Shown here: positions 31,199 to 47,336 of the stretch, piece after piece
Layout: every line of letters starts with the position of its first letter
How positions within the stretch are numbered: the first letter of the stretch is position 1
Assembly (NCBI RefSeq): GCF_947493565.1
Contig: NZ_CANLRG010000005.1
Location: 186,001-250,000 of the forward strand
Direction: 5' to 3'
Source of the DNA: an uncultured Lutibacter sp.
GTDB taxonomy: Bacteria > Bacteroidota > Bacteroidia > Flavobacteriales > Flavobacteriaceae
DNA length: 64,000 bases
Program-made: the position numbers and the translations under genes
The notes under the pieces: model-generated
The model's input: the letters and a program-made list of their open reading frames with translations, nothing else
Database searches by the model: none
Told to the model about the DNA's origin: nothing

Positions 31199-31240
31199 CT
31201 ACTTTAAATTTTAATATTTAAGAATTTAACTAATTCTGAT

Positions 31241-31314: not shown

Positions 31315-31316
31315 CA

Positions 31317-31547: not shown

Positions 31548-31781
31548 ATGAAATCATTACAAGAGTTTGTTAAAGAGCGTAGGAAAGAAGTTCACTTGAC
31601 TCAAGAAGAGTTTGCAGAAAGGGCAGGAGTTGCCTTAACGGTTGTTCGGAAAATAGAACAAGGGAAAAACAATTTAAATTTAGAAAAAGTAAATTTAGTA
31701 TTAAAAATGTTCGGGCATGTATTAACTCTGGTAGATGAGCGCTTACTTAATTCAAATATAGGTTATGATGAGAAAAGCTAA
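31548..31781 (+). CDS. HipB-like XRE-family transcriptional regulator (antitoxin)
   Basis: A 77-residue helix-turn-helix protein. The DNA-binding segment is LTQEEFAERAGVALTVVRKIEQGKNNLNLEKVNLVLKMFG, a HipB/XRE pattern. I start at the ATG at 31548 (MKSLQEFVK). In complete loci HipB represses its own operon and neutralises the HipA/HipT kinase. Here it overlaps by 17 bases the 77-residue hipA-N/hipS-like gene, and no kinase gene follows. Copies of CATATAAT at 31502 and 31542 around the start may belong to its operator. The toxin is missing, so the pair is an orphan remnant. Confidence 0.8.
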   Translation: MKSLQEFVKERRKEVHLTQEEFAERAGVALTVVRKIEQGKNNLNLEKVNLVLKMFGHVLTLVDERLLNSNIGYDEKS

Positions 31782-31998
31782 AATCTATTATAATAACATT
31801 TTGGCAGGAGTTTTAACAGAAACCAATGATGGTGATTATACTTTTCAATATGATACAAATTATATAAGTAAGTACCCCAATCAATTTATCACATTTACAA
31901 TGCCGATCAGTGATAAAGTATATAGAGACAAAAGGCTATTTCCTTTTTTTGAGGGGTTAATTCCAGAAGGTTACCCATTGTCGCGATTAGAAATTTAA
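31765..31998 (+). pseudogene. Truncated HipA N-subdomain-1 / HipS-like gene
   Basis: A 77-residue frame that overlaps hipB and reads as the first N-terminal subdomain of HipA (KIYYNNILAGVLTET..., FTMPISDKVYRDKRLFPFFEGLIPEGY). In split HipBST systems this domain is a separate protein, HipS, of about 100 residues, followed by the kinase HipT. After GLIPEGY (about base 31973) the similarity stops and the sequence changes to island DNA that is a minus-strand copy of another gene's tail (see the tail remnant at 31971). The final six codons and the stop are therefore fortuitous. The kinase part was not found anywhere in the window. Confidence 0.72.
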
Positions 31999-32140
31999 TT
32001 CCACGATTACTTTTTGATACGGGTTCCACGGTTGTAGAAACTGCAATTCCCTTTAAAACATTACAGACAAGTTGACGCATTGCAGCTGTAAGTTGTTCAT
32101 CCATTTTACCATTGATAACAAGATGATGGTTTCAGAGTCT
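31971..32140 (-). pseudogene. Tail remnant A: decayed C-terminus of a paralogue of the 1021-residue VWA protein
   Basis: On the minus strand the segment reads KMDEQLTAAMRQLVCNVLKG and, further on, FLIATMGN. It parallels the C-terminal tail of the 34652-37717 gene (MDEKINEALGALACDVYKEI) and closely matches remnant C at 33824. The reading frame shifts just before the MDE motif, and the copy is cut after MGN where it joins the hipS-like gene; remnant C continues six more residues to its stop. It is a gene fragment without a start. Confidence 0.6.
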
Positions 32141-32164
32141 TTAAACTCAAGGGATTGGTAGGGG

Positions 32165-32283
32165 AGCAGTTTATAGGTCGCCAAGGGTGGCTGTGAGGTG
32201 TACAGGAGTCTACAGAAACGAAAATATAGGTACTATTACAGTTTCTACATATGTAATGCTTTGGCTGGACTCATGAACCGACA
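32165..32283 (+). pseudogene. Probable decayed 23S rRNA 3'-end fragment
   Basis: The stretch ending TAATGCTTTGGCTGGACTCATGAACCG resembles the last bases of 23S rRNA, which read (T/A)ATG...GCCGAG...GTACTAATAACC(C/G) in Bacteroidota and TACTAATGAACCG in E. coli. It directly precedes a 5S-like sequence on the same strand, the expected gene order. The match is patchy and the 5' limit uncertain. The gene-free interval 31999-32450 holds only this, tail remnant A, the 5S-like sequence and a terminator. Confidence 0.4.
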
Positions 32284-32296
32284 ATACAATATTGAA

Positions 32297-32412
32297 GATT
32301 TAGGTGACCATAGCGACGGGGGCACATCTCTTTCCATTCCGAATAGGGAAGTTTAAGCCTGTTTGCACCGATGGTACTACCACACCAGGTAGGGAGCCTA
32401 GACACTGCCTTC
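32297..32412 (+). rRNA. 5S rRNA-like sequence, probably decayed
   Basis: About 116 bases follow the 5S pattern: TAGGTGACCATAGCGACGGGG at the 5' side, CCATTCCGAATAGGGAAGTT in the loop B/C region, CACCGATGGTACT in loop E, and GACACTGCCTTCC closing the terminal stem. Deviations from conserved positions (an extra T in AGTTTAAGCC, GGAGCC for GGAGAG, ATAG for ACAG) point to relaxed selection. No 16S or intact 23S precedes it; only a probable 23S end does. A terminator follows directly. An overlapping 79-codon frame is spurious. Confidence 0.6.
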
Positions 32413-32416
32413 CTCG

Positions 32417-32446
32417 AAGCCCGATACATCAGTATCGGGCTTTTTT
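32417..32446 (+). terminator. Terminator of the 5S-like remnant
   Basis: Perfect ten-base arms AGCCCGATAC / GTATCGGGCT, a four-base loop and six T on the plus strand. It directly follows the 5S-like sequence. A near-copy lies at 34067-34098. Confidence 0.8.
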
Positions 32447-32450
32447 ATTC

Positions 32451-33392
32451 CTACATGTCATAGGCCCTGAAATAATAGATTGCATCCGAAGGAAGGGAAG
32501 AAATTACCGTATGTCTGTGGTTTTTGAACCAAGAAACATCTAAGCCCCTTTCATGTTCCAAGGGATATTTTCCAATTACTTCGGTTTTGACCAAGTTCCA
32601 ACCAGGTTTAAAATGTAGATCATAGTTCACGTTGGTTTTAACATCAAGTGAGTTTGTCCCATCTTTATAAACTTTTCCACTCCATTCTTGATCCATGACC
32701 AATGCACAATTTTCATTGGCATATGCCCAATACAAAATATAGCCTTCGTCACCGGAATCGATACCACTTTGAGTAGTCAGGTTTTTGGTCACCCTAACCG
32801 AATTCCCTATGGTTAAGTTGCCTAGTGTTTTCCCATCTTTCATGATCAATAAAGCTGTATTGGTTATAAACCCTGTTTTCTTATTGGTATAATTAATGGG
32901 GCTGTTCCCATAAATGTCAAAAAACAGGCCCTGAGGTCCCATTTGTCTTTCAAATGTGGTTTTTGTGTTGACCGAAGAAGGTAAATTGAATATAATGCTC
33001 CCATCTTCCTTAATGGAACCAATTTTGAAAGTCTGCAACCTTACACCTTTATACGTCATCACAATATCTACAACACCTCTGGACCAACCGTTGAACTTTC
33101 CTTGGGTACTTGCCAGAGTGTTTTGCCAATACCAATCGTCCGCGTTGTTTTTATTTGAGGTTGACTTGGTTTCATTCGCGGTTGCATATTTGGCATTCAT
33201 GGAATCTTACATTTTTTGCATCTCCTGTATTTTCTGCATCATTTCCTTCATTTGAGGTGAATTCATGACGCTGTCCTGTTTGCGCATTAATTCTTCCATC
33301 TGTTTTTTCTGTTTTTTGGGCGTTTGGGCAGTACCCATATATCCAATAAAGGAAATGGATACTAAGACTATTGTTTTAATAAAAATTTTCAT
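32451..33392 (-). pseudogene. Secreted protein gene interrupted by one in-frame TAA (61 + 249 residues)
   Basis: Two frames lie in the same phase and are separated by a single TAA at 33207-33209. The first (33207-33392) has a signal peptide (MKIFIKTIVLVSISFIGYMGTAQ) and a Met/Lys/Gln-rich segment. The second (to 32451) is a 249-residue beta-rich protein without a signal, ending in VSWFKNHRHTVISSLPSD... Reading through gives ...QEMQKM-stop-DSMNAKYAT..., a smooth continuation, so this looks like one exported protein of about 312 residues with a nonsense mutation. Re-initiation at the ATG 9 bases past the stop is possible but would give an unexported product. No family recognised. Confidence 0.65.
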
Positions 33393-33516
33393 AATCTGTT
33401 GTTTAGTTTTTACTTCCAATGTTATTATATAAGGTTGTAATTGATTTTGTGTGAAATTAATTTTCATAGTTTTAGTGTTTAATAGTTAATATTTATTCAT
33501 TAATTGATTCGACAAT

Positions 33517-33770
33517 AGGTTTGGAATGAGCTTTTAATATTCAGGAACAAGAAACTGAAAATCCTGCGATAAGTTTTTCAATGGTGCTGTTCCACGGAGA
33601 AGCTGCATTGATATTTTCAAGAGTACTTATGGCAGTGCCGATTCTCCCCATGCTGGAATAAAGGATTTCTTTGTAAACATCGCATGCTAAAGCTCTCAGG
33701 GCTTCGTTTATTTTTTCATCCATACCACCCGCATCCATTATTATGAGGGCTTGTGAGGCCAAAACAGATA
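33517..33770 (-). repeat. Tail remnant B: near-identical duplicate of the VWA-protein C-terminus
   Basis: From about 33538 to 33763 the minus strand repeats 34649-34874, the last 70 codons of the large gene, with about three base differences by eye (two change Gly to Trp and Gly to Arg). Similarity continues more weakly through the spacer to 33467, matching the spacer before the 34137-34577 gene. No start codon or upstream coding exists; before LASQALII the frame reaches a stop within about ten codons. It is a recent duplication relic, not a functional gene. Confidence 0.85.
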
Positions 33771-33823
33771 ATTTTTTTAGTCAAATCAGTAAAAAATGTA
33801 ATATAAATAAAGTTGTTGCCGGG

Positions 33824-34016
33824 TTAATTACAAACAGGCGCATTATTGCCCATAGCCGCGATTAGAAATTGAATTCCACCATTGCCTTTGGACAAGGACT
33901 TTTTTGCTCTGGAAACCATTATCGTCTTTAAAACATTACAGGCAAGTTGTTGCATTGCAGCTGTAAGTTGTTCGTCCATTTTTTCTGTTGACATCAAGAT
34001 GATGTTTTCAGAGGCT
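33824..34016 (-). pseudogene. Tail remnant C: C-terminus of a divergent VWA-protein paralogue
   Basis: The minus-strand frame reads ASENIILMSTEKMDEQLTAA, then LACNVLK, and ends FLIAAMGN and APVCN before a stop at 33824. It aligns with the large protein's tail ASQALIIMDAGGMDEKINEA, LACDVYK, KLIAGF, VSCS, keeping both cysteines. The frame is intact but short (56 codons from its first ATG). Upstream it runs into 5S-like and terminator sequence, so it is the stranded end of a lost paralogue. Together with remnant B and the terminator at 34067, it accounts for the 33763-34136 interval. Confidence 0.65.
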
Positions 34017-34026
34017 ATGGCTTATA

Positions 34027-34066
34027 ACCGTACCAAGGTAAAACTATAGGCATCACCTTCCTTGAA
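34027..34066 (+). pseudogene. Decayed 5S rRNA 3'-end fragment
   Basis: The 40 bases before the terminator at 34067 (CCGTACC ... CACCTTCCTTGAAAGCCC) parallel the 3' end of the 5S-like sequence at 32370-32420 (GGTACTACC ... CTGCCTTCCTCGAAGCCC). Only the 3' end is left. Alone it would not be recognised; the pairing with a similar terminator supports the call. Confidence 0.4.
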
Positions 34067-34098
34067 AGCCCGACACCTATCGTATCGGGCTTTTTTTT
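34067..34098 (+). terminator. Terminator-like hairpin, second copy
   Basis: Arms AGCCCGACAC / GTATCGGGCT with one mismatch, a five-base loop and a run of eight T. It is a divergent copy of the hairpin at 32417-32446, in the same plus orientation. Confidence 0.7.
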
Positions 34099-34136
34099 GT
34101 AATGACTAAGATTATTATAGACCGTATAAGGGTAGG

Positions 34137-34577
34137 TTATTTTAACTTTAATACCACTTGCTGGCTTTTTTTATCAAACATTATAACAAATTGATCACCA
34201 GGAATGAATGAATCACCTGGAATGAATGTATCTCCCGGAATATAGGGTTTTTTTACATTGGCTGTAATAAGGGCATTCTGTAAGTCTATATTAAAACTCC
34301 GTGCACCTTTAAGCGGTAAAGATTTTGTCTTCCTTGTTGATCTTGCGCCATTCTTATATAGTTTACCGGAATAAAAGGTACTTTTTGGATATTTCCTTGC
34401 TAAGTTTTTAGCATTGCTTTTATCAAAAGGTATAATGTCCGTCAATTTTTTATTGGAATTATCTACTACCAACAATACGTCTTTTCCATTGGAAAGTTTG
34501 GTTTGGGCGTTAGCATTTGGGTTTACAGCCCATACCAATAGAATCAAAAAAATCATTGTTTTCATCGGTGTTTTCAT
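34137..34577 (-). CDS. Small secreted protein with IPGD repeats, unknown function
   Basis: A 146-residue protein with a signal peptide ending in NANAQ. No known domain is recognised. The middle is basic (ARSTRKTKSLPLKGARSF). Near the C-terminus three back-to-back copies of a six-residue motif appear, (Y/F)IPGD(T/S/Q). It lies 74 bases downstream of the large VWA gene on the same strand, after a spacer that is repeated before the interrupted gene at 33392, so it sits in the first of two duplicated tail-plus-gene units. Likely periplasmic or surface-exposed. Confidence 0.65.
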   Translation of the reverse strand: MKTPMKTMIFLILLVWAVNPNANAQTKLSNGKDVLLVVDNSNKKLTDIIPFDKSNAKNLARKYPKSTFYSGKLYKNGARSTRKTKSLPLKGARSFNIDLQNALITANVKKPYIPGDTFIPGDSFIPGDQFVIMFDKKSQQVVLKLK

Positions 34578-34651
34578 AATTATATTATTTAAAAGTTAAT
34601 ATTTATTCATTATTAGGTTCAACATCAATTTTAGAATTGGACTTTTAATAT

Positions 34652-37600
34652 TCAGGAACATGAAACTGAAAATCCTGCGATAAGTTTTTCAATGGTGCTG
34701 TTCCCCGGAGAAGCTGCATTGATATTTTCAAGAGTACTTATGGCAGTGCCGATTCTCCCCATGCTGGAATAAAGGATTTCTTTGTAAACATCGCATGCTA
34801 AAGCTCCCAGGGCTTCGTTTATTTTTTCATCCATACCACCCGCATCCATTATTATGAGGGCTTGTGAGGCCAAAGCATATAACTTGACAAGGGTAATACT
34901 ATATGTAGCAACTATTCCAATGGGCATGGTGCCAATTCCCGTCATCGTCATACCAAGGTTCATTCTGGCAACCAATTTTGAATATTCCTGTACAACGACC
35001 TGTAACGCCTTCAGCTGTTCTTCTGTAGTGCTGCCTCCTCCTCCCGTTTCGTCGGGCAATATGCCATAGAGTTCTCCATTCGTACGGTCTATCTTCCAAA
35101 TAGATTTTGTCTGTAGTGTGGTATCTACAAATTTCAATTCCGAACGGCCCAGTAGAATAGAGTAATAGTGAAGAAAGTTTTCCTTATAGGCCTTTTTTAC
35201 AAATTGTTCATCACTTCCGCTATCCATGTTCAATAGTAAGGGTTTTCCTTTCAAATGGGAATAAGCACTATCATCAAACATATGACCCTCCAAAATGGCC
35301 AGTTGTGCCGTTTTTTTAAGGGTTTCCCTAAAACCTCCCTCTCCACTCCGTGTTACCGAGAGATATTCTGAGGTGGGCAGATAATCGAAGGATATTCTAG
35401 TTTTTTTATTGTAATAGCCCGGTATGACCTTTATAATGCATGTTCTAAATCCTTTGGGGTAGGTAATGGCTTTTTCTGTGACCTGATCTTGTAAAGGCTG
35501 CATCATGGACAATAGAATCTGAGGATAACTTAAAGTACCCTTGCTCAATTCCTCCAGAGCCTTGGGTATGTTGTTGTCCTGATATGCCTCAAACCATCCC
35601 CGATTACTCATCAATGTCTGTAAGTATTCGGTAAGTTGGAGCGAAAGGGTGGGAGCTTCCCGTTCAAAGGACATGACTAGACCGCCTAACAACGTTTCGT
35701 GCACTTCATGTATCATTTGACGGTTAGGTTTTATGTGGGCTCCGTTGCGGTCCAAATGGGGTTCATACCCGGCCAACACTCTTTTAATTGTACCCATACC
35801 TTTTCCCTTGATGGTCAGGTAGAGCCCGATCATACGGTTTCCCAGAACATTATCGTTCATAGGGAAGTTATAAGGAAGTTCAATCTGGTGCTCGGTCCCT
35901 TTGATTTTTACGATGAGCTTGTGATCTTTATCCTCTTCAAAAGAATTGTAGGTGAGTACATAAGTGGGAAAACTTAACTGATCTACGTATTTTTTAATTT
36001 CTGCAATGGTCGTTTCCTGATCATCCGCAGCTATTTCCGTAAAGTCTATATTTTCCCTTAAACGCTTATAATGTATTTCTTTGTTATATACATTCAGCAG
36101 GATGGCTGGTGGTCCGGCATTATATATGGACTCATATGAGGCATCGTACTCATCACTGTTCTCTCCGTCCGTAGCATAAAGAATCAAATCAGCATCAAAT
36201 TGCTTTCCATTTAATAAGGAGGTATAGAGTGTTGAATCTGTTTCTTGTAGGAATACTTGGGCCGAAGGGTAAGCTTCCCGTATCATCCCCTCGGTTTGTG
36301 TCAAAAACTCCTTGATGCCATCTCCCCGATATGCTTTAGGCATACTACCGGAGGTATCGTACATCAAAAGTATTTTTGGTGAAATGGAGTTTTGTTTCAT
36401 CCAACCTACAATGGGTTGCCCATTGTCCACAAGCTCAAAATTGCCTATGGAAAGCCCCCCGACAATATTTCCCTCGGCATCTTTTGGTTCCAGCTCCAGT
36501 CTCACCTTTGGAAAAGCTTGCGGATAAACCTTTCCTTCCAATGAACGAATATTGTTTAAGGCCACCGTCAACTCCTCTTCGGACTGTACGATCGGTGTGT
36601 AGCGTTCCAATACTTTTTCGCCCTCCAAAGTAATGGGCTCGCCCAAAAAGGAGCGTTTCTCTACATAGCTAACATCTTTATGGATATCCTGAAGAGCCAA
36701 ACACGGGGTAAAATTGGATATTTGGGAAACTGATTTTGTGGCCTGGTCCCCGAACGTCATATTGTTCAGAAATTGTACCTGTAGCTGATTGCCCAATAAT
36801 TCTGATAATTTCCAAGTTCCTGAAACCAATGTGGTTTCGTTCCATTTATCCATAACGTTCCTGCAAGAGAGGGTAGCTGTAATGTCCTGTTCTTTAGGTT
36901 CCTTAAATTCCCTGGCGTCTTTGATCTCTTTATTTTCATTGGTAGGGTGCAGCTGGCCAAAGGGGACTTCGGGGTCAAATATGTGCGCATATTTTTCTTC
37001 TTCGTTTTCATAAAAGACCACCGAAGGAATGCCTTTTTCATCAAATCCTTGTTCGGTTGGTTTCTCACGGATATATTCTTCCTTGATCTGCCCCAATAGG
37101 TCATTGGCCAATGCCTCCGTTTTTTGTTGAAAATCCGGGATGGTTTCAAAGCTCCTGTTTGTTTCCGTAACGCCCAAAGCTTTATGCCATTTACGCATTT
37201 TACGGTTGGAAATGGGCGGGTCAAATTCCGGGATGTATTGTCTAAAAGTAATGTCCTTGACCTTGTCCAACGAAATAGTGGTGGTTTCCCAAACCACTTT
37301 GGCCTCAAAACCGGCTTCTACCAACATGTTTTTCAATATTTCGGCCTTTTCCCTAGGTGTGGCGAGTCCACAACGCAAAGCCATCTCGGTACCATACTGG
37401 GTTTCGGTAGCGATGTATTTATAAAAATCACGTTTGGATGGCAGTATTTGGAAACTGTCCCTTACGAATTCCGTCATGGCCTTAGGGTTTTTGGAGGCTA
37501 CAAGCACTTTGCGCCGGCCGACCAAGTGATCCGGACTCTGCTCCAACATTTTGATCATATCTTCCCAAACCCCAAAGGGAGGTCTGCCCAAATCTTCGGT

Positions 37601-37717
37601 ATTGCAGCTTTGAAAGAGCAAGGGCGATAGGTACAGTCCTGAACCGGCCAATACCAATTGTTTGAAAAAATCCCTGCGGGAGGCATTGGAAACGAATGGT
37701 GTACTATGGTCTTTCAT
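34652..37717 (-). CDS. Tat-exported protein with transglutaminase-like and von Willebrand A domains
   Basis: A 1021-residue protein. The N-terminus SRRDFFKQLVLAGSGLYLS is a Tat signal, followed by LLFQSC, which could be a lipobox. Residues about 85-140 (ALRCGLATPREKAEILKNML, then AGFEAKVVW) resemble a transglutaminase-like/BtlCP fold. A VWA domain starts near residue 445 with the MIDAS motif DTSGS and a later YATDGEN. The rest is unassigned. The last 70 residues (MDEKINEA..., ending FSVSCS) form a tail of which three remnants lie downstream. It is the fourth gene of a minus-strand set with spacings of 14-29 bases (19 bases from the lipoprotein gene). G+C content is clearly above the flanking chromosome. 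Function unknown; a surface adhesion or processing role is speculation. Confidence 0.75.
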   Translation of the reverse strand: MKDHSTPFVSNASRRDFFKQLVLAGSGLYLSPLLFQSCNTEDLGRPPFGVWEDMIKMLEQSPDHLVGRRKVLVASKNPKAMTEFVRDSFQILPSKRDFYKYIATETQYGTEMALRCGLATPREKAEILKNMLVEAGFEAKVVWETTTISLDKVKDITFRQYIPEFDPPISNRKMRKWHKALGVTETNRSFETIPDFQQKTEALANDLLGQIKEEYIREKPTEQGFDEKGIPSVVFYENEEEKYAHIFDPEVPFGQLHPTNENKEIKDAREFKEPKEQDITATLSCRNVMDKWNETTLVSGTWKLSELLGNQLQVQFLNNMTFGDQATKSVSQISNFTPCLALQDIHKDVSYVEKRSFLGEPITLEGEKVLERYTPIVQSEEELTVALNNIRSLEGKVYPQAFPKVRLELEPKDAEGNIVGGLSIGNFELVDNGQPIVGWMKQNSISPKILLMYDTSGSMPKAYRGDGIKEFLTQTEGMIREAYPSAQVFLQETDSTLYTSLLNGKQFDADLILYATDGENSDEYDASYESIYNAGPPAILLNVYNKEIHYKRLRENIDFTEIAADDQETTIAEIKKYVDQLSFPTYVLTYNSFEEDKDHKLIVKIKGTEHQIELPYNFPMNDNVLGNRMIGLYLTIKGKGMGTIKRVLAGYEPHLDRNGAHIKPNRQMIHEVHETLLGGLVMSFEREAPTLSLQLTEYLQTLMSNRGWFEAYQDNNIPKALEELSKGTLSYPQILLSMMQPLQDQVTEKAITYPKGFRTCIIKVIPGYYNKKTRISFDYLPTSEYLSVTRSGEGGFRETLKKTAQLAILEGHMFDDSAYSHLKGKPLLLNMDSGSDEQFVKKAYKENFLHYYSILLGRSELKFVDTTLQTKSIWKIDRTNGELYGILPDETGGGGSTTEEQLKALQVVVQEYSKLVARMNLGMTMTGIGTMPIGIVATYSITLVKLYALASQALIIMDAGGMDEKINEALGALACDVYKEILYSSMGRIGTAISTLENINAASPGNSTIEKLIAGFSVSCS

Positions 37718-37736
37718 ACAGATAAGGTTGGTTGGA

Positions 37737-38321
37737 TTAGTGAAGTTGTTCTAAATTCAAATCCTTTACGATTTGCTCCAATTCATCATGGCTCACTTCA
37801 TAGGTTTCCACATCAACGGCAAATCGGTTGTTATAGAACATGGACAAGCTAAATTTACCGCTCTTAAGGGCGGATTCCTTTACTTTGAGTCCATTGAGAG
37901 TTGTGGTCTTGGTAGTGCCCCAGGAACCTTTTTCATCGTATTCTCTAGTGCTGGAAAACCGGTAGGTGCTCACGGCGTTGTTTCCCTTTTCGCCAGCGCC
38001 ATCAATGACCATTACCCTTACCCTTCTATTGTTTACACTGTAGGTACCACCACAGGAACCCATTCCCGAAATCACGTTAATGGCGGAAGAGGTCAAGGGC
38101 ATGCCCAACACCGTTTTGGGCATCCAAGCTTCAAACTGTTCTTTGGTAAGCGGTGTTTTATGAACCAGTGTTCTCTTATTGTCTTGGATGTCCTCAACTG
38201 TTTTGACCAAATCATTGGTGCTAGAGGTTTTTGGTTCTGTTTTATTATCTTCTTTACTCCCACAAGAAATAATTAGAAGCAAGACCATTGGAATAATGAA
38301 TGATGATATAATGATTTTCAT
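37737..38321 (-). CDS. Lipoprotein of a Bacteroidota family of unknown function
   Basis: A 194-residue lipoprotein; the signal ends in LLIISC, so Cys20 is probably lipidated. I start at 38321 (MKIIISSFI), because the upstream ATG at 38351 lies within the end of the preceding gene and adds non-signal residues. The body (LTKEQFEAWMPKTVLGMP, VMVIDGAGEKGN, GRF-like NNRFAVDVE) resembles a family I have seen in Bacteroidota lipoproteins, whose role is not known. It is 19 bases upstream of the VWA gene and 14 bases downstream of the 254-residue protein gene, clearly one operon. Confidence 0.7.
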   Translation of the reverse strand: MKIIISSFIIPMVLLLIISCGSKEDNKTEPKTSSTNDLVKTVEDIQDNKRTLVHKTPLTKEQFEAWMPKTVLGMPLTSSAINVISGMGSCGGTYSVNNRRVRVMVIDGAGEKGNNAVSTYRFSSTREYDEKGSWGTTKTTTLNGLKVKESALKSGKFSLSMFYNNRFAVDVETYEVSHDELEQIVKDLNLEQLH

Positions 38322-38335
38322 GGTAGTTGAAATTT

Positions 38336-39100
38336 TTATCCTTTGCTGCATGGTAAAGCGCTCATTGTATTACCGATATCCACACTTTCTTTTATGATGG
38401 CTAATGGGTGAAAATATGTGTTAAGCAAATACGAAATACGCTCGTGAGCACGAATCATATGTTTTCTTTTGTTTTTTTCTTTATCATTGGAAACGGTTAA
38501 ACTCTCTTCGGCAAAAAGAAATTCGCGCAAGGTTTTCTGAAAATCTTCGTGTAGTTGGTTGTATCTTTTTCCATATTTGGGACTATTATTTAGACCATAT
38601 TTTCGATCATCATGATCACTAATTAAATCATAATAATCCCCCAATACGATAACATATTCAGGACTATCGAAAATTGAACCTCCTAGGTTACCATCTCCAA
38701 GTATCAGATTGTACAGGCCTTCAGTACAGTATATTATGGTAGTTGATGAGGCAATAGCCATGAGTTGCATACCATACAAATCGTATTTTATTAGACAATC
38801 ATCTGTCTTGTTGGTTTCCTTTTTCAGTTTCACGAAGTTTTCCTCATATTTGATCATCAGATAGATGCATTTTAATTCGGGAGAGTACATATCCAACGAA
38901 CTTAAATCCGTTGCTAGATTTTTAAACTTCTTCTTGAGGTCATCTATGGCTTTATCGTCCGCCGCATGCTTGGCCTTATCCTTCGCCTCTCCAAAAAATT
39001 CCTGCGCTTCGCCCATGATGTCACCGAGGTTAAGTTCTTGTGCCTTTGTTCCGGTACTTATAAGCAGAAAGAGTATGGTGTAAACTAATATTTTTTTCAT
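38336..39100 (-). CDS. Secreted helical protein, unknown function
   Basis: A 254-residue exported protein with signal peptide MKKILVYTILFLLISTGTKAQ. The mature part is predicted helical, with a charged segment (EFFGEAKDKAKHAADDKAIDDLKKKFK) and no recognised domain. Four scattered cysteines are present. It is placed in the regulator-led island operon between the DUF4412 protein (29-base gap) and the lipoprotein. The envelope location is inferred from the signal peptide. Confidence 0.65.
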   Translation of the reverse strand: MKKILVYTILFLLISTGTKAQELNLGDIMGEAQEFFGEAKDKAKHAADDKAIDDLKKKFKNLATDLSSLDMYSPELKCIYLMIKYEENFVKLKKETNKTDDCLIKYDLYGMQLMAIASSTTIIYCTEGLYNLILGDGNLGGSIFDSPEYVIVLGDYYDLISDHDDRKYGLNNSPKYGKRYNQLHEDFQKTLREFLFAEESLTVSNDKEKNKRKHMIRAHERISYLLNTYFHPLAIIKESVDIGNTMSALPCSKG

Positions 39101-39129
39101 GTGTTACATTTTATAATGGTTCAATTTTA

Positions 39130-40092
39130 TTAAAACCCACCCATGGTGGTGTATTCTTCTTTCTTTATGGTCATACCTTCTTCCTTGAGTTCGATGCATA
39201 CCATACTAAAGTTGTCCTTTTTCTTCTTGGCAGACTCAAAATGCATTTCCATGAACATGGTGTTCTCACCAAGCGGCAATATACTAGATGGAAGATTCTC
39301 GGCATTGGCTATGCCGCCTAAATACCCCACCGGGGTATCATTGGTAATCCATACTTTGGAGATGCCATCTTTACTGGTAATCTGATAGCCTTTGCATACG
39401 TAGCCCAAAATAACCTTATCGGCAATGGGGGTAATCTTAATGTCCTCCATGGCTTTTTGGTTTTTTTCCTCCATTTTTTTGGTCAGTTTTTCAATCATTT
39501 TTTTACTGGAAGGAATTTTCATGGCGGTCTTGCGTTTCCCATCGTCGTTGAACATGACCATGGCTTGGTTTTCCAAGTCCATAACGGCAATGCTATTGGT
39601 CTGGCCCTGATCGTACTTGTTGCCAAAATAACGTTGGCCTGGTTCCATCCAATATTGGATTTCTGTCTCCTCTTTTAGGGAGGTGATTTTCATGGTGGCC
39701 CTATAGGAGAATTCATAAACATCGGGAATTCCTTTTAATCCAGAAGCACCTGCAAGCATACCTGTCATTTTTTTCTGAATAGCAGCTTCTTTAGCCTTAT
39801 TTTGCTTTTGCTTATCTAGGTTTTTTTCGGTCTCGCCTATGTTCTTGGAGGTGTTTCCGCCTATAGTGCTCCCTGTGGTTTTGTTCTTAGTTGTTTTGTT
39901 CCCTTTTTTTCCTTGGGTAATGGAGTCTATGGCCTTGTCCGTTCCTTTTGAAACCTCTTCATCCGTACGGTTTAAGATGGTCCGCTCAACTGCTTCCTTT
40001 GCCTTTTTCTTCAATTTCTTCAGAAACTGAGCCTCTGCTGAATAAGATACTGCAAGTCCACATATCATCAGTAATAAAAATCTTTTTTTCAT
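39130..40092 (-). CDS. DUF4412-family exported protein
   Basis: A 320-residue protein with a signal peptide ending in SAEAQ, followed by a strongly basic helix (FLKKLKKKAKEAVERTI) and a Lys/Thr-rich low-complexity linker (about 55-95). The C-terminal part (YRATMKITSLKEETEIQYWM..., GYVCKGYQITSKDG, VWITND) matches DUF4412 proteins common in Bacteroidota, which have a beta-sandwich of the outer-membrane lipoprotein-carrier type. Function is not established. It is the first gene of the tightly spaced exported-protein set below the hybrid regulator. Confidence 0.78.
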   Translation of the reverse strand: MKKRFLLLMICGLAVSYSAEAQFLKKLKKKAKEAVERTILNRTDEEVSKGTDKAIDSITQGKKGNKTTKNKTTGSTIGGNTSKNIGETEKNLDKQKQNKAKEAAIQKKMTGMLAGASGLKGIPDVYEFSYRATMKITSLKEETEIQYWMEPGQRYFGNKYDQGQTNSIAVMDLENQAMVMFNDDGKRKTAMKIPSSKKMIEKLTKKMEEKNQKAMEDIKITPIADKVILGYVCKGYQITSKDGISKVWITNDTPVGYLGGIANAENLPSSILPLGENTMFMEMHFESAKKKKDNFSMVCIELKEEGMTIKKEEYTTMGGF

Positions 40093-40160
40093 AATAGTAG
40101 TATTAATTGTTCTTTATATTTCATTGAGATAACAGACTGAGAAGGGGCTGTGTCTTTCCC

Positions 40161-40295
40161 TTACATTTTTGATGAGATATTTTCTTCTTTATTGATTACT
40201 AAGGTCTGTACAACTTTGTTTTCCAATAGAATGTTGAGTTGGTATTTCCCATTTTTCAGATGGTCTATACTCATATAAATCTTATCGTGTTCCAT
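40161..40295 (-). CDS. Small conserved-looking 44-residue protein
   Basis: A short frame: KIYMSIDHLKNGKYQLNILL followed by NKVVQTLVINK. The pattern (three beta strands with a DHL-NG turn) resembles a family of short Bacteroidota proteins that I recall only as hypothetical. It starts with ATG at 40295, 150 bases below the hybrid regulator's stop and 68 bases above the DUF4412 gene, on the same strand. It could also be a fragment of a longer protein. The rest of the interval (40093-40160 and 40296-40445) holds nothing recognisable. Confidence 0.45.
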   Translation of the reverse strand: MEHDKIYMSIDHLKNGKYQLNILLENKVVQTLVINKEENISSKM

Positions 40296-40445
40296 TCTCT
40301 TGTCTCTTGTTTATGTTCTTTAGGAATATCCTAAGTTGATGTGATCATTTAATGGAATACTAAATTAGAACGGAAAATACTTTATGGATAGAATATATGT
40401 TTTCAATGATAGAACATATGTTTACAACAGTTTTAAACCATTTAT

Positions 40446-43400
40446 TTACTGTGGTTTACAAATATATTCATTAGGAGTGCAGCCTTCTATTTCCTTAAAA
40501 CATTTGTTGAAGTAGGAAGGCGTGTTGAATCCAACCTGATAAGCAATTTCAGAAATGGAGGCATCAGATTTGCGTAATAGTTCCTTAGCTAGGTTAATGC
40601 GCTGCATCCGAACAAATTCCGTGGTCGACATTCCTGTAATAGCACTAAGTTTTTTGTGTAATTGAGAGCGGCTTATGTGCATGAGTTTAGAGAACCTTTC
40701 GCTCGTAAATTCAGGAGAAGTAATGTGTTTATCCAAAACCTGCTGGAGACGTGTTAAAAATTCGGCTTCTATTTTTGTGGGAACAAGTCCGGGGTCTACC
40801 TTAAAAGTTTTGGAGTAATGCTCCCGAAGCCGTCTTCTGTTCTCCAAAAGCTTTTCCACCCGAACCTTTAAAATATTAGGATTAAAGGGCTTTGTTACAT
40901 AGGCATCAGCACCAGTTTCAAGACCCTTCAACTGGTTTTCTTCACTGGCTTTTGCAGTCAGTAATAATACAGGTACATGACTGGTTAATTGATTACCCTT
41001 TATTTGTTTGCAGAATTCAATACCATTTTGCACGGGCATCATGACATCGCTTATAATGAGGTCGGGAAGGTTCTTCAAAGCCATTTCAAAACCTTCTTTT
41101 CCATTTCTGGCCTTCATGACCTTATAATCATCATTAAAAATAGACATGGTATATTTTAAAACATCCTTATCGTCTTCTACAATAAGTAAAGAAGCTTTTT
41201 GGGCTGGCTGCAATATGGCTTCGACGGAGTCTACGGGGTCACTATCCGGTATAGAGAAATGTTTTAATGTATTTGTATCATAGCTCTCCTGGGTAATGGG
41301 TATGGTAAGGGTAAACTGGATTTTGTCTTCTCCAATATTGTTTGCAATAATACTTCCCATAGACAGGGCCACGAGTTCCCTGACCAAAGCCAGACCCACC
41401 CCGACTCCTTCGGCTGACTCATTGTTCTGGTAAAAACGTTGGAACAGTTTGCTCAAATCTTCAATTTCCATCTCGTTGGTGGAATTCAGAATGGAAAAAA
41501 CAAAACTGTCCTCTGTCCGCTCCGCGTTCACTAGGACTTCACTATTCTTCGGAGCGTATTTTACGGCATTGGACAATAGATTGGATATTATTTTTTCAAT
41601 CACGTCCCTATCAAACCAAGCATTGTCAATCTTTTTGAAGCTGTAGGTAATGGTGATGTGTTTTTCCTTGGCGATATATCTAAAAGCTTCTATCAGCTGT
41701 ACCAACAGTCCCCTTAGATCTCCCTTGGCAACATTGAGCTGTAGATGGCCAGAATCTATCATGGATAGGTCCAACATTTGATTGACCAGCCCTAGTAGTC
41801 TTTGGGCATTGTTTTTAATGAGGGAAAGTTCTTTTTCATCTTCATCGGAAAGATCTGTTCGGCTCAATTGATGCTCTATTGGCCCCGAAATAAGGGTGAG
41901 TGGGGTTCGTATTTCATGGGAAATATCCGTGTAGAGTTTTGTCTTTAGTTCATCAAGCTTTTGAAATCTGTTTTTTTCCATTTCAATATGGTAAAATTTG
42001 TGGCCCAGTCCCATGGAAAATACAAGTAGTTCCAAGAAAACTCCTAATTGGGAAATATTGAAACTATAAAAGCCAAAAACGTTGTTGGATTCCACACCCC
42101 CTGAAAATGTATCCTGATTCCCTAAATTTAAAGCAACCATGCTAAATCCTATAAGGAAAAAATTTCCAAGGAAAATATAATACCGTAATGGAGATTTTAC
42201 CACAATGAAGGCTCTGATCACGGCATAAATTCCATATAAATGTAAGGGTAGTAAAAGCAAGTTTAAGTGTCTTTTTACCAATAAAAAATCTTTGGTCAGG
42301 AGTACATAAAGGAATATAGAAATTGCAGCTACATAGGTGGCAATGGAAAACCACTTGAGTTCTCGTGAAAATTTGGCATGATGTTCCCGAATTTCCGCAA
42401 ATGAGTCTACAAAAGCAATAAAAATTCCTGATATTAAAAATAACAGTGGAGCCAAAAAATAATAGGTGGTATTATAATTTTTAAAAAACAGCTGCAATTC
42501 TAATTTAAGGTCTATTCTTAAAAAGAAATAGGTGGCAAATATCAAAATATAAACACTGTACAATACATAATCCTGCTTCCTTAATCTAAAATACAGCAGT
42601 AGCATAAAAATACCAATGGCAATAAAGCACCCTTGGAAGATAAATGTGATAAATACGGCCACAGCCATATTTGTAAAGTGCCACGGCTGTTCAATTTCAA
42701 AATCATAGACAGCAGGTACATTACCCCAAACCCCATCATAGTTACTAGAAATCACTTGAAAATTATATTTGCCGGGGGGTAGATTGGTATAGCGTACCTC
42801 ATTGTTGTTCCCCGCATAAACCCAGCCTTCATCATGGCCTGCTAAACGGTATTTATACTCATTCAATTTGGGTTGAGAAAACTGCAGAGATGAAAAGGTG
42901 AAGGTGATAGTGTTTTGCGTGTGCTTTAAAGGAACATTTTCTGTAAGGTTACGACTTGTATTGAAAACCTTTACATTGGTGATTACAGTTTTGGGTTTGA
43001 AAGGATTGGTCTTCAGTTGCTCCGGCTTGAACCAGTTTAGCCCTTCCAGTCCACCGAAGTAGAGTGTGCCATCGCTTCCTTTAAAGTAGGCTCCGGTATT
43101 GAATTCATAGGATTGCAGGCCATCATAATTTTCATAATTCTCAATAGAGGGTTTCCCGTTTATACTGGAAAATTTAGAAATCCCCTTATTGGTGCTCAAC
43201 CATAAATTATTTCCTATATCCGGTAGAATACCATATATGACATTATTAGGGAGGCCGTCCCGAGTGGTAAAGTGCTGTATGTTCCCATTGGATGGGACAT
43301 AAGATTTCAGTCCGTTCCCATTAGTGCCTATCCAAAGGGTATCTGCTTTATAATACAGAGATTTAATTTTATCAGGCACCGATTTGATTTCAGTAATGAT

Positions 43401-44963
43401 ATGGGTTGTCATATCCAAAGAAAAGAGGCCGTTTTGTTCGGTTCCTATCCAGAGGATATTCTGCTTTCCGGGTTCGGCGGTTCGTATATTGTTAGATGTC
43501 AGTGTTGAGTTATGCGTGGTATATTGGATCGTTTTTCCTTTCGATTTGTCATAGAGAATTAATCCCTGATTACGGGTACATAACCATAAGCGATCTTTTG
43601 GGGCATTTAGAATTTTCCAAATGGTCATGTTTTGCGTTTCAGGGGTAGTGGTTATCCTACCGTCGGAATCCATCATTTGCAAACCATAACCCTGATGACC
43701 GATCCAAAGAGTCTTACCATCGTAATAGAGGGACATAATCCGATTTCCCAATAAATTGGAGGTTTCAGCTTTGATGGTTTTGTATTCCCGGGTATCCAAA
43801 CGGGCTTTTGTTAACCCCTTTCCCGATGTTCCTAGCCAGATAGTACCATTCTCCTCTGCAATAGCCCTGATAACATCCACATGGATATCTTGTGGGAGTT
43901 GTTTACTGATAAGCGTGTTAAATTTTGTAAGGTATTGGTCAAAATAGCTTAGACCTGCCCCGTCTGTACCCAGCCAAACTGTTCCTGAATTATCTTCAAA
44001 TAAGGATAGTATGTCGTTATAGTGAATGGCGTTCGGGTTATTCTTGTTTGCCATAAAATGGCTGATACTTTCTGAAGAGAAATCAATAATGTACAGTCCT
44101 TGACCATAGGTGGCTACCCAAAGCCTACTATTTTTATCCACCAATAGATCCAGGATGACTAAATCTTTTGGGAATATTTCCTGACCGAACCCCTTGAACT
44201 GTTCCAGACCATCATCATATGAGGACATAAAGAGTCCATTTCCATAGCTTCCCACATAGATTTTATCGTCTTTTTGACTAAAGGAACTAAAATTGATTCC
44301 AGACATGCTATGAACCTTGTCCAAGGTGTTTTCTTTTGTATTCAACTTGAACACCCCTCCCGAAGCGGCGATCCAAATGTCTTTTTTGTATTCTATGAGG
44401 TCATAAATACTCAGACTTTGGTCTACTTTATCCAAAACCTGTAAAGTGTCCTCTACATTATAGGGTATCCTGTAAAGGCCATTTCCAAAAGTGCCCACAT
44501 AAAGACTTTTCTCAGCATCTTCATAGATGATACTGGCACTATCAATGGCCTGCACTTTTTGAAACTTCTCATTTCTTGAATCATAAAATTGTAAGACTCC
44601 AGGGTTGGTAATGGTCCACAAGGTGTTTTTTTTATCAATGTAGACTTTGCCCAGTTTACTATACGAAGGTCTGGTTACGTCTTCGAATTGTTCTTGGAAA
44701 ATTTTGAATTCCCTACCGTCATATTGATTGAGTCCGTCCTGTGTGGCAAACCAAAGAAATCCGGTAGTGTCTTGGGCTATGCTAACCACACTGTTTTGGG
44801 AAAGACCATCGTTTACTGTAAGATCGTTAAATGAGAACCTATCTTGAATTATTGATGAATTTTGTGCATTACCCGATATATAATTCCCAATATAGAGAAT
44901 CATGATTATTATCTTAAAAGGGACAGACAGGACATGATATTTATGGTCGCAAATAATATGCAA
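40446..44963 (-). CDS. Hybrid two-component sensor kinase/response regulator (HTCS) with a 7TM segment and AraC output domain
   Basis: A 1505-residue single-chain two-component system. From the N-terminus: signal/anchor (1-34), a beta-propeller of Reg_prop repeats (about 45-690; TTGFLWFATQDGLNQYDG, GTVWLGTDGAGLSYFD, ILWIGTEQNGLF), a Y_Y_Y domain (about 690-758), about seven membrane helices (about 765-985), HisKA with the phospho-acceptor in DISHEIRTPLTLI (about 1015), HATPase, receiver with DVMMPVQNG (Asp near 1306) and an AraC-type DNA-binding domain (about 1390-1500). Standard HTCS proteins have a single membrane helix after Y_Y_Y. Such regulators often sense glycans and switch on adjacent loci; the exported-protein set lies directly downstream. 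The ligand is unknown. Confidence 0.9.
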   Translation of the reverse strand: MHIICDHKYHVLSVPFKIIIMILYIGNYISGNAQNSSIIQDRFSFNDLTVNDGLSQNSVVSIAQDTTGFLWFATQDGLNQYDGREFKIFQEQFEDVTRPSYSKLGKVYIDKKNTLWTITNPGVLQFYDSRNEKFQKVQAIDSASIIYEDAEKSLYVGTFGNGLYRIPYNVEDTLQVLDKVDQSLSIYDLIEYKKDIWIAASGGVFKLNTKENTLDKVHSMSGINFSSFSQKDDKIYVGSYGNGLFMSSYDDGLEQFKGFGQEIFPKDLVILDLLVDKNSRLWVATYGQGLYIIDFSSESISHFMANKNNPNAIHYNDILSLFEDNSGTVWLGTDGAGLSYFDQYLTKFNTLISKQLPQDIHVDVIRAIAEENGTIWLGTSGKGLTKARLDTREYKTIKAETSNLLGNRIMSLYYDGKTLWIGHQGYGLQMMDSDGRITTTPETQNMTIWKILNAPKDRLWLCTRNQGLILYDKSKGKTIQYTTHNSTLTSNNIRTAEPGKQNILWIGTEQNGLFSLDMTTHIITEIKSVPDKIKSLYYKADTLWIGTNGNGLKSYVPSNGNIQHFTTRDGLPNNVIYGILPDIGNNLWLSTNKGISKFSSINGKPSIENYENYDGLQSYEFNTGAYFKGSDGTLYFGGLEGLNWFKPEQLKTNPFKPKTVITNVKVFNTSRNLTENVPLKHTQNTITFTFSSLQFSQPKLNEYKYRLAGHDEGWVYAGNNNEVRYTNLPPGKYNFQVISSNYDGVWGNVPAVYDFEIEQPWHFTNMAVAVFITFIFQGCFIAIGIFMLLLYFRLRKQDYVLYSVYILIFATYFFLRIDLKLELQLFFKNYNTTYYFLAPLLFLISGIFIAFVDSFAEIREHHAKFSRELKWFSIATYVAAISIFLYVLLTKDFLLVKRHLNLLLLPLHLYGIYAVIRAFIVVKSPLRYYIFLGNFFLIGFSMVALNLGNQDTFSGGVESNNVFGFYSFNISQLGVFLELLVFSMGLGHKFYHIEMEKNRFQKLDELKTKLYTDISHEIRTPLTLISGPIEHQLSRTDLSDEDEKELSLIKNNAQRLLGLVNQMLDLSMIDSGHLQLNVAKGDLRGLLVQLIEAFRYIAKEKHITITYSFKKIDNAWFDRDVIEKIISNLLSNAVKYAPKNSEVLVNAERTEDSFVFSILNSTNEMEIEDLSKLFQRFYQNNESAEGVGVGLALVRELVALSMGSIIANNIGEDKIQFTLTIPITQESYDTNTLKHFSIPDSDPVDSVEAILQPAQKASLLIVEDDKDVLKYTMSIFNDDYKVMKARNGKEGFEMALKNLPDLIISDVMMPVQNGIEFCKQIKGNQLTSHVPVLLLTAKASEENQLKGLETGADAYVTKPFNPNILKVRVEKLLENRRRLREHYSKTFKVDPGLVPTKIEAEFLTRLQQVLDKHITSPEFTSERFSKLMHISRSQLHKKLSAITGMSTTEFVRMQRINLAKELLRKSDASISEIAYQVGFNTPSYFNKCFKEIEGCTPNEYICKPQ

Positions 44964-45008
44964 TGCTCTTAACGATTAAGGTTTAGTCTTTACAATATAC
45001 TCTTTTTT

Positions 45009-46349
45009 TGGACTTGCAACAAAAAACTGAACAATTAGTTGAATGACTATGTTGCTAGTTTGAGGTTATACATATCTAATTCAAATTCTCTTATAGTTCT
45101 ATTCCCTAAAAAGGAATGTCATCTTTTATTGTTGTACCAAGTTTCTATACATCCAAAGATGGATAACTCCGTTTCAGATCTCAATTTATAATTGTGCCTA
45201 TAAACCCATTCTACCTTTAATGATTTAAAGAAGGATTCTGCAATAGCATAATCCCAGCAATTACCTTTTACTCATTACATTTTATTTTTAATTAAGGTAT
45301 TCGTGATGTGCTTCGAAGTTCTACTCATTGATTGGTTTACTAAACCATTGTAACTTTTAATTAAAGAGGTAAACTTATGGCTGGCATATTGTATGCCTCG
45401 ATCGGAATGAAAAATTAAAGGCTGGGTTAAGGTTGTTTTCTTTATAGCCATATACCAAGCTTTAATAATAGTATCCTCTGTGCTCAGATTGTCACTTAGA
45501 GCCTATCCAACAACTTTGCGGTTAAACAAATCAATAATGACAGTAAGGTATAACCAGCCTTATTTGGTTTTTATATAGGTAATATCACTTACCCAAACTT
45601 GATTCTGCCTGCTTACTTCAAAATTTTGGTTTAATAAATTAGTTGCTATTGGGTAATTATGCTTATTATCGGTGGTTGCTTTAAACTTACGTTTTCGTTT
45701 TGCAAACAAATAATTAGTACTCATAATACGAGCCACTCTAGGCTTTGATATTTTATAACCTAATGACTCCAGCTCTGTTTTTATTTTGGGTGAACCATAG
45801 CTTTGAAAACTATCTTTAAATATAGATTTAATAAGCGTAGTTATTTTTTGATTTTCTAACCATAATTTACTTGCTCCTGATTGTAACCAATGGTAGGTAA
45901 TAACCGCTTTTGCTTACTTTTAATATTTGACACATCGTCTCGATAGGAAATCTCATAAGAGGTTGTTTTATAAACCTGTATTTTTCTTGTCGCTCGCAGA
46001 GAATATGCTGATTGCCTTTTTTAAGATGTCACGTTCTAACTCGGCTTCTTTTAAATCCTTTTTTAATCGAGCTATCTCTTTTTCTTCATCGGTCATTTTA
46101 GGATTACCACGGCCTGGAAAACTGTTCTTACCGTAATCTTTTAATTCTCAACGCCAACGGTAAAATACTGATGGAAATATGTCCAAGTCTTCACATACTT
46201 GTTTTACATTGCCTTTGGCATAACTAACTCGACTGCTTTTTGTTTAAATTCTAAAGTGTAATGTTTAGATTTTCTTCTCATAATTGCTAAGATAAAAACT
46301 AACTAACATATTCTCTCATCTTTATGTCCAGTCTAATATAGGAAGTCCA
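45009..46349 (-). mobile_element. Decayed IS3-family insertion sequence
   Basis: The element runs from TGGACTT (45009) to AAGTCCA (46349), about 1341 bp, which is normal for IS3. The ends are imperfect inverted repeats: TTGGACTT, then ACTG-ACA about ten bases in, at both ends. Flanking bases show no clear target duplication. The transposase reads on the minus strand and has several stops and frameshifts. The left end is 45 bases from the ATG of the hybrid regulator. Confidence 0.8.
45047..46281 (-). pseudogene. IS3-family transposase (orfA + orfB), inactivated
   Basis: OrfA starts at 46281 (MRRKSKHYTLEFKQKAVEL), shifts frame after about 18 codons, continues SYAKGNVKQVCEDLDIFPS, meets a TGA after VFYRWR, and resumes LKDYGKNSFPGRGNPKMTDE... 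OrfB keeps the DDE catalytic landmarks (VWVSDITYI, FHSDRGIQYA, FFKSLKVEWVY) but contains stops, for example after YIKTK and VVG, and a frameshift around GYY/HWLQSG. The last traceable residues end at the TAG at 45047. No active transposase can be made. Confidence 0.85.
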
Positions 46350-46700
46350 ATCTTAAAATAATCTTTTTCAAAAGACAGATGATTAAGTTACTACAAGAGC
46401 TATTCCGAATATAGTAGTTGTCTATATAAATTTGTAGAGTAAAGTTAATTAAGGGTTATTGTACTAGAAATTATTTATAAATACAAATGCTAAACATCGC
46501 AATACTTACAATTATGAATAAAATTTTTAAAAAAACAATTCTTTGATTTATAGTATTTATTTGTTTTAAATAGTTGTTGAGCTTAATTTCTATTAAATTG
46601 TTTGAATATGCGCTATTTTTTAATTCCAAATTTCCAATTTACTTTGATTATTATTTTATAAATATAATTTGGGGTTTTCTAGGGGGTAATTTTCAGGTAT
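46350..46700. other. Gene-free A+T-rich interval
   Basis: Low-G+C sequence where core-like composition resumes after the IS. On the minus strand a frame without a start codon (about 46608-46471) reads KLNNYLKQINTINQRIVFLK followed by a membrane-like stretch; it may be the decayed end of a membrane protein. Nothing else is recognised, and the missing hipT/hipA kinase part is not here. Confidence 0.5.
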
Positions 46701-47204
46701 TTAATCATTAAACTTTTTTGGGAACTTCATTTTTTGATCCATCTCTTTTTTTAAGTCCATTGCTTTAATGTATAGCGACATTTTACTTCGAATAAAATAT
46801 AGAATGGCAATAATTATTGCTGCAATAGGTATAGTATAAATAAATTCTACAGTATCAACATACTGTATGCTATCATTAATAACCGCAATTAACTGAAATA
46901 AGTATACTGAAATTGGAATTAAAATTGCATGAACCCACCAATGCTTATTTGTAATGAACCAGATAAAAAGTAGTAGTAATGGTACAAATTTTGAAAAAAA
47001 GTAGTAGATGTAGTTTTGAGCCTTTACATAATGCCCTCCCTTAATTACACCTATAATTGTATTCCAGTCTTCAGGTTGATAAGGGTCATCTGGAAATAAT
47101 ACAGGGACAGATTGGTAAAAGTATAATAAGTAAGGTGTAATAACGATTAAAAATATTATAATGCTTCCAATAAATAGCGATGATCTTTTATTATTTTTAA
47201 ACAT
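46701..47204 (-). CDS. Small integral membrane protein, unknown function
   Basis: A 167-residue protein with four predicted membrane segments (about 10-30, 65-85, 90-110 and 115-140), an extracytoplasmic loop DDPYQPEDWNTIIGVIKGGH, and a charged C-terminal tail (MDLKKEMDQKMKFPKK). No family is recognised. It stands alone on the minus strand between the IS remnant and the 43-residue gene; composition is core-like. Confidence 0.65.
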   Translation of the reverse strand: MFKNNKRSSLFIGSIIIFLIVITPYLLYFYQSVPVLFPDDPYQPEDWNTIIGVIKGGHYVKAQNYIYYFFSKFVPLLLLFIWFITNKHWWVHAILIPISVYLFQLIAVINDSIQYVDTVEFIYTIPIAAIIIAILYFIRSKMSLYIKAMDLKKEMDQKMKFPKKFND

Positions 47205-47336
47205 GCCTTGTATAACTAATTTTGCCTAACAAATATAGTTAAATTATTAAAATCACAAAATGAAAAACACAAAAACCACAATAATGTGATACTATTGTGG
47301 TATTTTAGATGTTAAATCTAAATATTTAAATAAAGA

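Follow-up and report, generated by a model that had tools for sequence, protein, structure and literature searches.

What does an operon do that is headed by a hybrid two-component system (HTCS) regulator of the kind known from polysaccharide utilization loci (PULs), but in which no glycan gene was found? The question is raised by positions 34,137 to 44,963 of a 64,000-nucleotide stretch of DNA from an uncultured Lutibacter sp. (contig NZ_CANLRG010000005.1, positions 186,001 to 250,000; this whole stretch is called the window below). Seven open reading frames (ORFs) lie there on the minus strand, HTCS first, with intergenic gaps of 150, 68, 29, 14, 19 and 74 bases. A preliminary description of this DNA, made from its letters, had reported a hybrid regulator and exported products on one strand at spacings of 14-150 bases, with which the ORF coordinates and gaps agree. 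The answer to which we give a probability of about one half is that the window carries a mosaic copy, acquired by import, of an envelope operon conserved in flavobacteria, and that this operon makes a regulated, metal-dependent envelope binding lipoprotein together with accessory exported proteins; we infer the location of this lipoprotein, its ligand, its regulation and the role of its tail. In the list below and thereafter, L numbers denote related loci.

34137-34577, minus strand: G3, a 146-residue exported protein with IPGD-type repeats at its end (ORF)
34652-37717, minus strand: 1021-residue lipoprotein with a twin-arginine translocation (Tat) signal, predicted pseudo-transglutaminase (residues 44-275), VWA domain with metal ion-dependent adhesion site (MIDAS; 445-582) and hydrophobic helical tail (896-1021)
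37737-38321, minus strand: LipoA, a lipoprotein of the LipoAB family (ATG at 38321)
38336-39100, minus strand: helical exported protein, 254 residues (ORF)
39130-40092, minus strand: DUF4412 exported protein, 320 residues (Pfam DUF4412, E 3.3e-08; 80% to L018)
40161-40295, minus strand: G7, a 44-residue protein, without signal peptide by eye (at most 89% identity over 37 residues in relatives)
40446-44963, minus strand: HTCS, 1505 residues, including a 7TMR-DISM membrane part

Five of the seven products look exported, signal peptides being judged by eye. The preliminary description had counted G7 among them; it is left out here because no signal peptide could be seen in it. The DUF4412 domain, also named in that description, is confirmed by the Pfam match, and the DUF4412 and LipoAB products appear periplasmic or lipidated by eye. 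The number of IPGD-type hexapeptide repeats at the end of G3 differs among genomes (window, L008, L018, L020 and L049).

Domain plan of the large lipoprotein

No Pfam or NCBIfam model matched the 1021-residue protein of the window. Among 18 aligned relatives, VWA (E 0.02) and Transglut_core (E 0.032) were matched in one member each, and sequence searches gave no convincing solved homologue. A structure of all 1021 residues, whose prediction the preliminary description had proposed as a check, was modelled with a mean pLDDT of 76.6 and a pTM of 0.74. Residues 445-582 have a predicted VWA/integrin I-type fold (Z 12.3, rmsd 2.6, 131 residues aligned to 9t5w). Its MIDAS residues D454, S456 and S458 (D-x-S-x-S) together with D517 occur in all 32 proteins of the family, and T499 in 27 of them. 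Fold and metal-site residues are like those of integrin-type VWA/I domains, but here the domain forms part of a Tat-signal lipoprotein of 1000 residues, in which it follows a pseudo-transglutaminase. A VWA domain is also present on another Bacteroidota surface protein, the Mfa5 fimbrial tip protein of Porphyromonas gingivalis, which the available part of PMC7835359 places in a fimbrial operon; no fimbrial family was found among the ORFs scanned here.

The signal region of the window protein reads RRDFFK and then FQSC, so that the Tat signal, like the MIDAS motif, is as the preliminary description had it. The first arginine of the pair is kept in 31 of the 32 proteins and the second (R15) in all; with loose patterns, a twin-arginine motif was found in 29 and a lipobox following it in 25. 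Acidic residues seen by eye after the lipobox cysteine are at most suggestive of surface exposure.

The same description had proposed a transglutaminase-like region, which stands as a fold and probably not as an enzyme. When residues 44-275 were modelled alone (pLDDT 76.0), the structure matched LapG (Z 9.9, rmsd 3.9, 138 residues aligned), TglA (Z 9.8), PeiW (Z 9.5) and then transglutaminases, an assignment that depends on VIA re-alignment, as Foldseek alone gave nothing under E 0.001 for this domain. Five of 15 members gave weak matches to Pfam Transglut_core, the best at E 0.033. Since the genome itself has no transglutaminases, those of relatives were used for comparison: a profile set against eleven true transglutaminase stretches (E 5.6e-4, probability 29.7%) matched the helix-strand core register and put Pro121 opposite the catalytic Cys. 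The domain shares the fold and core register of the transglutaminase/LapG superfamily, but the position of the catalytic Cys is Pro in 28 of the 32 proteins, Phe, Ala, Val or Leu in four and Cys in none, and by eye there is no His at its usual place. As judged from these residues, the transglutaminase-like part is probably inactive; with the Cys absent from 32 of 32, it is most likely a binding domain.

The last 126 residues are predicted to form long helices, with modest model confidence. In 31 of the 32 proteins this tail is where the most hydrophobic run of 19 residues beyond residue 60 lies, and two of its cysteines are conserved (30/32 and 31/32). The body is under purifying selection, with a dN/dS of 0.14 over the first 890 codons in comparison with L007, a locus from an Algicola metagenome-assembled genome (MAG).

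A conserved gene set in an imported island

The 32 members of the VWA protein family come from Flavobacteriaceae, Rhodothermota-type bacteria, haloarchaea, a Myxococcales MAG and a Woeseiaceae MAG. Searches that counted the window's own genome found the protein in 2 genomes of a 395-genome phylum sample and in 18 of a 397-genome family sample (one of the 18 being a contig-end fragment), and it occurs in 16 loci of the genome collection. There are 25 flavobacterial loci, counting the window; two of them, L007 and L018, are from one MAG. An HTCS (profile score at least 700) is present in 10 of the 25, LipoAB in 19 and a DUF4412-profile match in 20, in some cases to the N-terminal part alone. The gene-neighbourhood search that the preliminary description had suggested shows that the set does co-occur elsewhere, HTCS, G7, DUF4412, helical protein, LipoAB and VWA protein being complete in 8 of the 25 loci. 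The set recurs in Allomuricauda/Flagellimonas-type genomes, and its canonical order is HTCS, G7, DUF4412, helical, LipoA, G3, G8, LipoB (or G13) and VWA, with single loci missing some of these; the contig of L018 ends within the VWA gene. LipoAB accompanies the VWA protein in 16 of 18 VWA-positive genomes and is found in 47 of 379 others (Fisher p 3e-12, ignoring kinship, taking the two 397-genome samples as identical and using a LipoAB profile derived from VWA-linked loci).

Several relatives have neighbours of their own. The haloarchaeal copies, in Natrononativus and, truncated, in Haladaptatus pallidirubidus, lie on large plasmids (L005 and L006), a spread between domains of life. Within the VWA/LipoAB gene set of L055, positions 10078-11988 match thiol-activated cytolysin (E 3e-08). 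Directly before the VWA gene of L011, positions 6787-9909 encode a protein of 1040 residues that combines a beta-lactamase-family domain with BTRD1 repeats, and in L010 (7832-16084) an outer-membrane beta-barrel gene in three copies and a small gene in two copies lie on both sides of the VWA gene.

The DUF4412-profile gene has a sigma-70-like gene and a TPR gene as neighbours in six of the 25 flavobacterial loci (L049, L050, L051, L052, L054 and L057). Five of these six also have a CHAT-TPR protein or one that clusters with it; that of L057 is a shorter one, encoded on the far side of the VWA gene, and L052 ends too early to show it. These identities come from Pfam for the trio of L049 and the CHAT protein of L054, and from clustering for the others. 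In L049 (10070-14270) the sigma-70-like gene, a TPR protein with an anti-sigma-like layout and a CHAT-TPR protein form a candidate sigma/CHAT switch. From its position we infer that the trio controls the VWA operon.

The gene set of the window belongs to an imported island of mosaic make-up, which has been inserted on the 3' side of a cluster of tRNA-Ser, tRNA-Pro and tRNA-Arg genes. GC content rises from about 30% in the surroundings to 38-44% across 32-44 kb. A relative of the same genus, L111, has an empty site: window positions 28809-31364 and 46713-48686 match its positions 4581-2014 and 1982-67 (blastn), and the two matches are 31 bases apart there. Insertion next to tRNA genes, a relative with an empty site and foreign composition are what is expected of a genomic island. 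No direct repeat of the tRNA-Arg end (att site) was found, this end occurring once in the window, and there is no integrase among the island ORFs scanned. The preliminary description had the genes in their right places, but it missed the island, the remnant tails, the broken gene Y and the IS3-like remnant, which are given here.

31019-31315, plus strand: tRNA-Ser(gct), tRNA-Pro(tgg) and tRNA-Arg(tct) genes (ARAGORN), the conserved left flank of the insertion hotspot
31365-46712, no strand: genomic island (blastn against L111, which lacks it, and GC shift)
31539-31998, plus strand: HTH (HipB-like) gene and truncated HipA N-terminal fragment (Pfam HTH_3, Couple_hipA)
31970-32140, minus strand: VWA-protein tail remnant, type A-like (67% over 46 residues; 77% at the nucleotide level against tail A of L007)
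32451-33467, minus strand: gene Y, an exported-protein gene split by an in-frame TAA into ORFs 33207-33467 and 32451-33200
33544-33780, minus strand: displaced tail B copy of the VWA gene (94% over 79 residues)
33827-34051, minus strand: displaced tail A copy (93% over 75 residues against the in-frame tail of L007; internal stop)
34060-34095, minus strand: terminator-like hairpin and T-run, 3' of the 146-residue gene (by eye only)
45009-46349, minus strand: decayed IS3-like insertion sequence (IS), with ends TGGACTT/AAGTCCA (rve E 7.5e-05, below the Pfam cut-off)

Gene Y gave no match in a Pfam scan; by eye it resembles proteins that adjoin the VWA gene in L046, L050 and L054. The genes flanking the island lie close together on one contig in five of the 21 relatives with a hit for the right-hand gene; in the remainder they are on separate contigs or far apart, or one is missing. 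The tRNA trio is kept in all five relatives fetched (L111-L115). What lies between the flanking genes measures 1.6 kb in L111, 3.3, 4.8, 13.8 and 14.9 kb in other relatives and 17 kb in the window, and this differing content, from about 1.6 to 17 kb, makes the interval an insertion hotspot in the genus. The hotspot interval of the window is 30917-47902, from the gene left of the tRNAs to the gene at 47902. At E 0.001 the VWA gene has no match in any of 99 relatives, of which 37 belong to the same genus.

The mosaic nature of the island is seen when it is compared with the two loci from the Algicola MAG. From 38278 to 35004 the window has 95.4% DNA identity with L007, whereas its DUF4412 stretch has only 69%; the drop places a recombination breakpoint near the lipoprotein gene start. 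Window positions 44891-38972 are 72% identical to the canonical operon of L018. The window has neither the G8 nor the LipoB gene of the canonical operon. The IS remnant stops 45 bases short of the HTCS start codon on the upstream side, at the border of what appears by eye to be a conserved block in four relatives, and therefore expression of the operon may be altered here. A viral origin was rejected, no relative being found in one scan of viral_contigs or in phage records, and so was a defence system, seven proteins having no PADLOC match.

Exchange of the C-terminal tail

The large lipoproteins of the window and L007 have bodies that are 97% identical and tails that are 41% identical. In L007 the order is body, tail A, about 45 bases, a displaced tail B piece and G3. 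In the window, body, tail B, G3 and the terminator-like hairpin are followed by a displaced tail A piece, a spacer as in L007, a displaced tail B piece and the broken gene Y, past which lies a third displaced piece, tail A-like and more diverged. A check with all 32 tails found displaced tails in three of the 32 loci, namely these two and L008 (Allomuricauda aurea), where positions 13082-13162, about 60 bases past the VWA stop, hold an L009/L012-type tail end of 27 residues, 89% identical to L012.

Trees of bodies and of tails were made for 16 of the 32 proteins. In the body tree the window, L007, L008 and L020 are grouped (99/97), whereas in the tail tree L008 goes with L043 (98/93) and L044 (100/99), while L007 joins the L009-L013 group (91/98). 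A tree that keeps the tails of window, L007, L008 and L020 together was rejected (approximately unbiased test, AU, p 0.0013), as was grouping the body of L008 with L043 (p 0.006); holding window and L007 together in the tail tree was not rejected (p 0.09). In none of the 13 other close pairs, whose bodies share 75-91% identity, does the tail fall below the body in similarity, which lends no support to frequent exchange in the family as a whole. In one pair outside the clade with exchange (window, L007, L008, L020, L043 and L044), L054/L055, the tails are less alike (44%) than the bodies (61%). These comparisons support well an exchange of tails that belongs to this clade and is not general across the family.

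Conserved body, swapped C-terminal module and displaced downstream pieces are alike in polymorphic toxins with C-terminal tip exchange, as the available part of PMC3482391 presents them; in contrast to what is described there, the tails here are mutually homologous, and neither an immunity gene nor a toxin domain was found.

What the operon may do

If the operon makes a regulated envelope binding lipoprotein, the HTCS propeller would bind a signal and the operon would be switched on, the sigma/TPR/CHAT set perhaps acting as the switch in place of the HTCS in relatives. The large lipoprotein would fold before Tat export and then be anchored in the envelope, where its VWA-MIDAS domain could hold a partner or ligand and its pseudo-transglutaminase could serve as a binding platform. 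The tail would provide additional contacts, its specificity changing by recombination, and the LipoAB, DUF4412, helical and G3 proteins may be accessory or assembly partners that help to build or extend the complex. The surface complex under control of a sensed signal that had been suggested in the preliminary description is plausible in this light. Among the literature matches listed, no title describes this gene set; DUF4412 was found in no paper, a search for HTCS with DUF4412 or von Willebrand gave an unrelated review only, and 7TMR-DISM occurs in none of the matches listed for HTCS-type regulators.

A number of observations weigh against this reading. LipoAB is absent from six of the 25 flavobacterial loci, and its hits do not adjoin the VWA gene in five of the 16 genomes (G494, G516, G670, G724 and G812). 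The eight non-flavobacterial loci (four of Rhodothermota type, two haloarchaeal, one Myxococcales MAG and one Woeseiaceae MAG) have the VWA protein and none of the other profiled families, although L016 is merely 3.4 kb long; the partners are therefore not essential to the big protein. No annotated relative supplies a function, and the Tat lipoprotein might be oriented towards the periplasm. The trees contain flagged long branches, L007 in the tail tree among them, and the clades tested were chosen when the identities were already known.

Tentatively, the locus might be a diversification system driven by recombination. The integrin-like Tat lipoprotein would be an envelope receptor whose helical C-terminal module is replaced by other tails, with displaced cassettes kept downstream, in an operon under either an HTCS or a sigma/TPR/CHAT protease switch. 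The third case of a displaced tail, that of L008, made us raise slightly the still low probability that we give to this.

We consider it unlikely that the operon is an envelope quality-control or stress module, the output of damage sensors, with the big lipoprotein as a periplasmic chaperone-like scaffold and not a surface receptor. Such a module would fit the sigma-70-like and TPR genes that six of the 25 loci have near the operon, five of them together with a protein of the CHAT type or one clustered with it, and also the periplasmic or lipidated appearance of the DUF4412 and LipoAB products. Against it stands the PUL-type HTCS of 10 of the 25 loci. Regulators of this type usually respond to ligands, not to damage. 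A role of the TPR protein as anti-sigma factor is moreover a guess from the layout. The signalling logic itself, with a sigma factor, its inhibitor and a TPR-CHAT protease, is known: in the CASP system, according to the available part of PMC10028731, the TPR-CHAT protease Csx29 cleaves Csx30, the inhibitor of a sigma factor. The relatives resemble CASP, so far as that part describes it (PMC10028731), in having CHAT-TPR, sigma and a third protein in one set. They differ from it in that the candidate set adjoins an exported-protein operon and the scanned neighbours are not Cas genes, no search for CRISPR having been made.

That the island is a decaying passenger, with no present function in this strain, we hold to be unlikely as well. 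The three remnant tails, the broken gene Y, the cut HipA and the decayed IS close upstream of the HTCS would be expected of such an island, as would the loss of the canonical G8 and LipoB and the lack of the VWA gene in all 99 relatives. All seven genes are open, however, and the dN/dS of the VWA body argues for function, though this selection may predate the transfer.

A glycan sensing and capture locus related to PULs is improbable. The window HTCS combines Reg_prop, Y_Y_Y, 7TMR-DISM, HisKA, HATPase, receiver and AraC domains (Pfam) in one polypeptide; propeller, Y_Y_Y, kinase, receiver and AraC parts are likewise in a single chain in PUL-type HTCS regulators, and Reg_prop/Y_Y_Y is the architecture of PUL regulators in the available part of PMC3243724. 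The window regulator differs from these by its 7TMR-DISM membrane part, and its operon by its gene content. In agreement with the preliminary description, which had found it not to be a standard PUL, no SusC, SusD, glycoside hydrolase, sulfatase or other carbohydrate enzyme was found in the nine window ORFs scanned with Pfam, and neither a SusC/SusD pair nor carbohydrate-active enzymes among 30 scanned proteins of related loci. The ORFs scanned thus lack the SusC/SusD and carbohydrate-active enzyme genes that define a PUL, and the set does not appear to be a PUL fragment; gliding genes were not searched by name.

Least probable is a polymorphic-toxin-like antagonism, in which the tail would be a swappable toxic or membrane-inserting tip, as the exchanged tails, the displaced pieces downstream and the hydrophobic stretch of the tail might suggest, but the tails are homologues of one another, scans with Pfam, NCBIfam and PADLOC gave no toxin family for the window protein, or for the VWA family at E 0.1, and the VWA gene is last in canonical loci with no common gene after it and hence no immunity gene, the small ORF that follows it in both L008 and L012 being in L008 a tail remnant in another frame.

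For the preferred reading, that of a regulated envelope binding lipoprotein, the analysis supplies a domain plan with testable residues for a family that spans Flavobacteriaceae, Rhodothermota-type bacteria and haloarchaea, and whose member in the window had no Pfam or NCBIfam match. It places an HTCS at the head of an operon in which no glycan genes were found, and it brings together one output operon with differing neighbour regulators, an HTCS or a sigma/TPR/CHAT set. If the tail exchange is functional, an envelope receptor would be varied in these bacteria without a toxin or an immunity gene.

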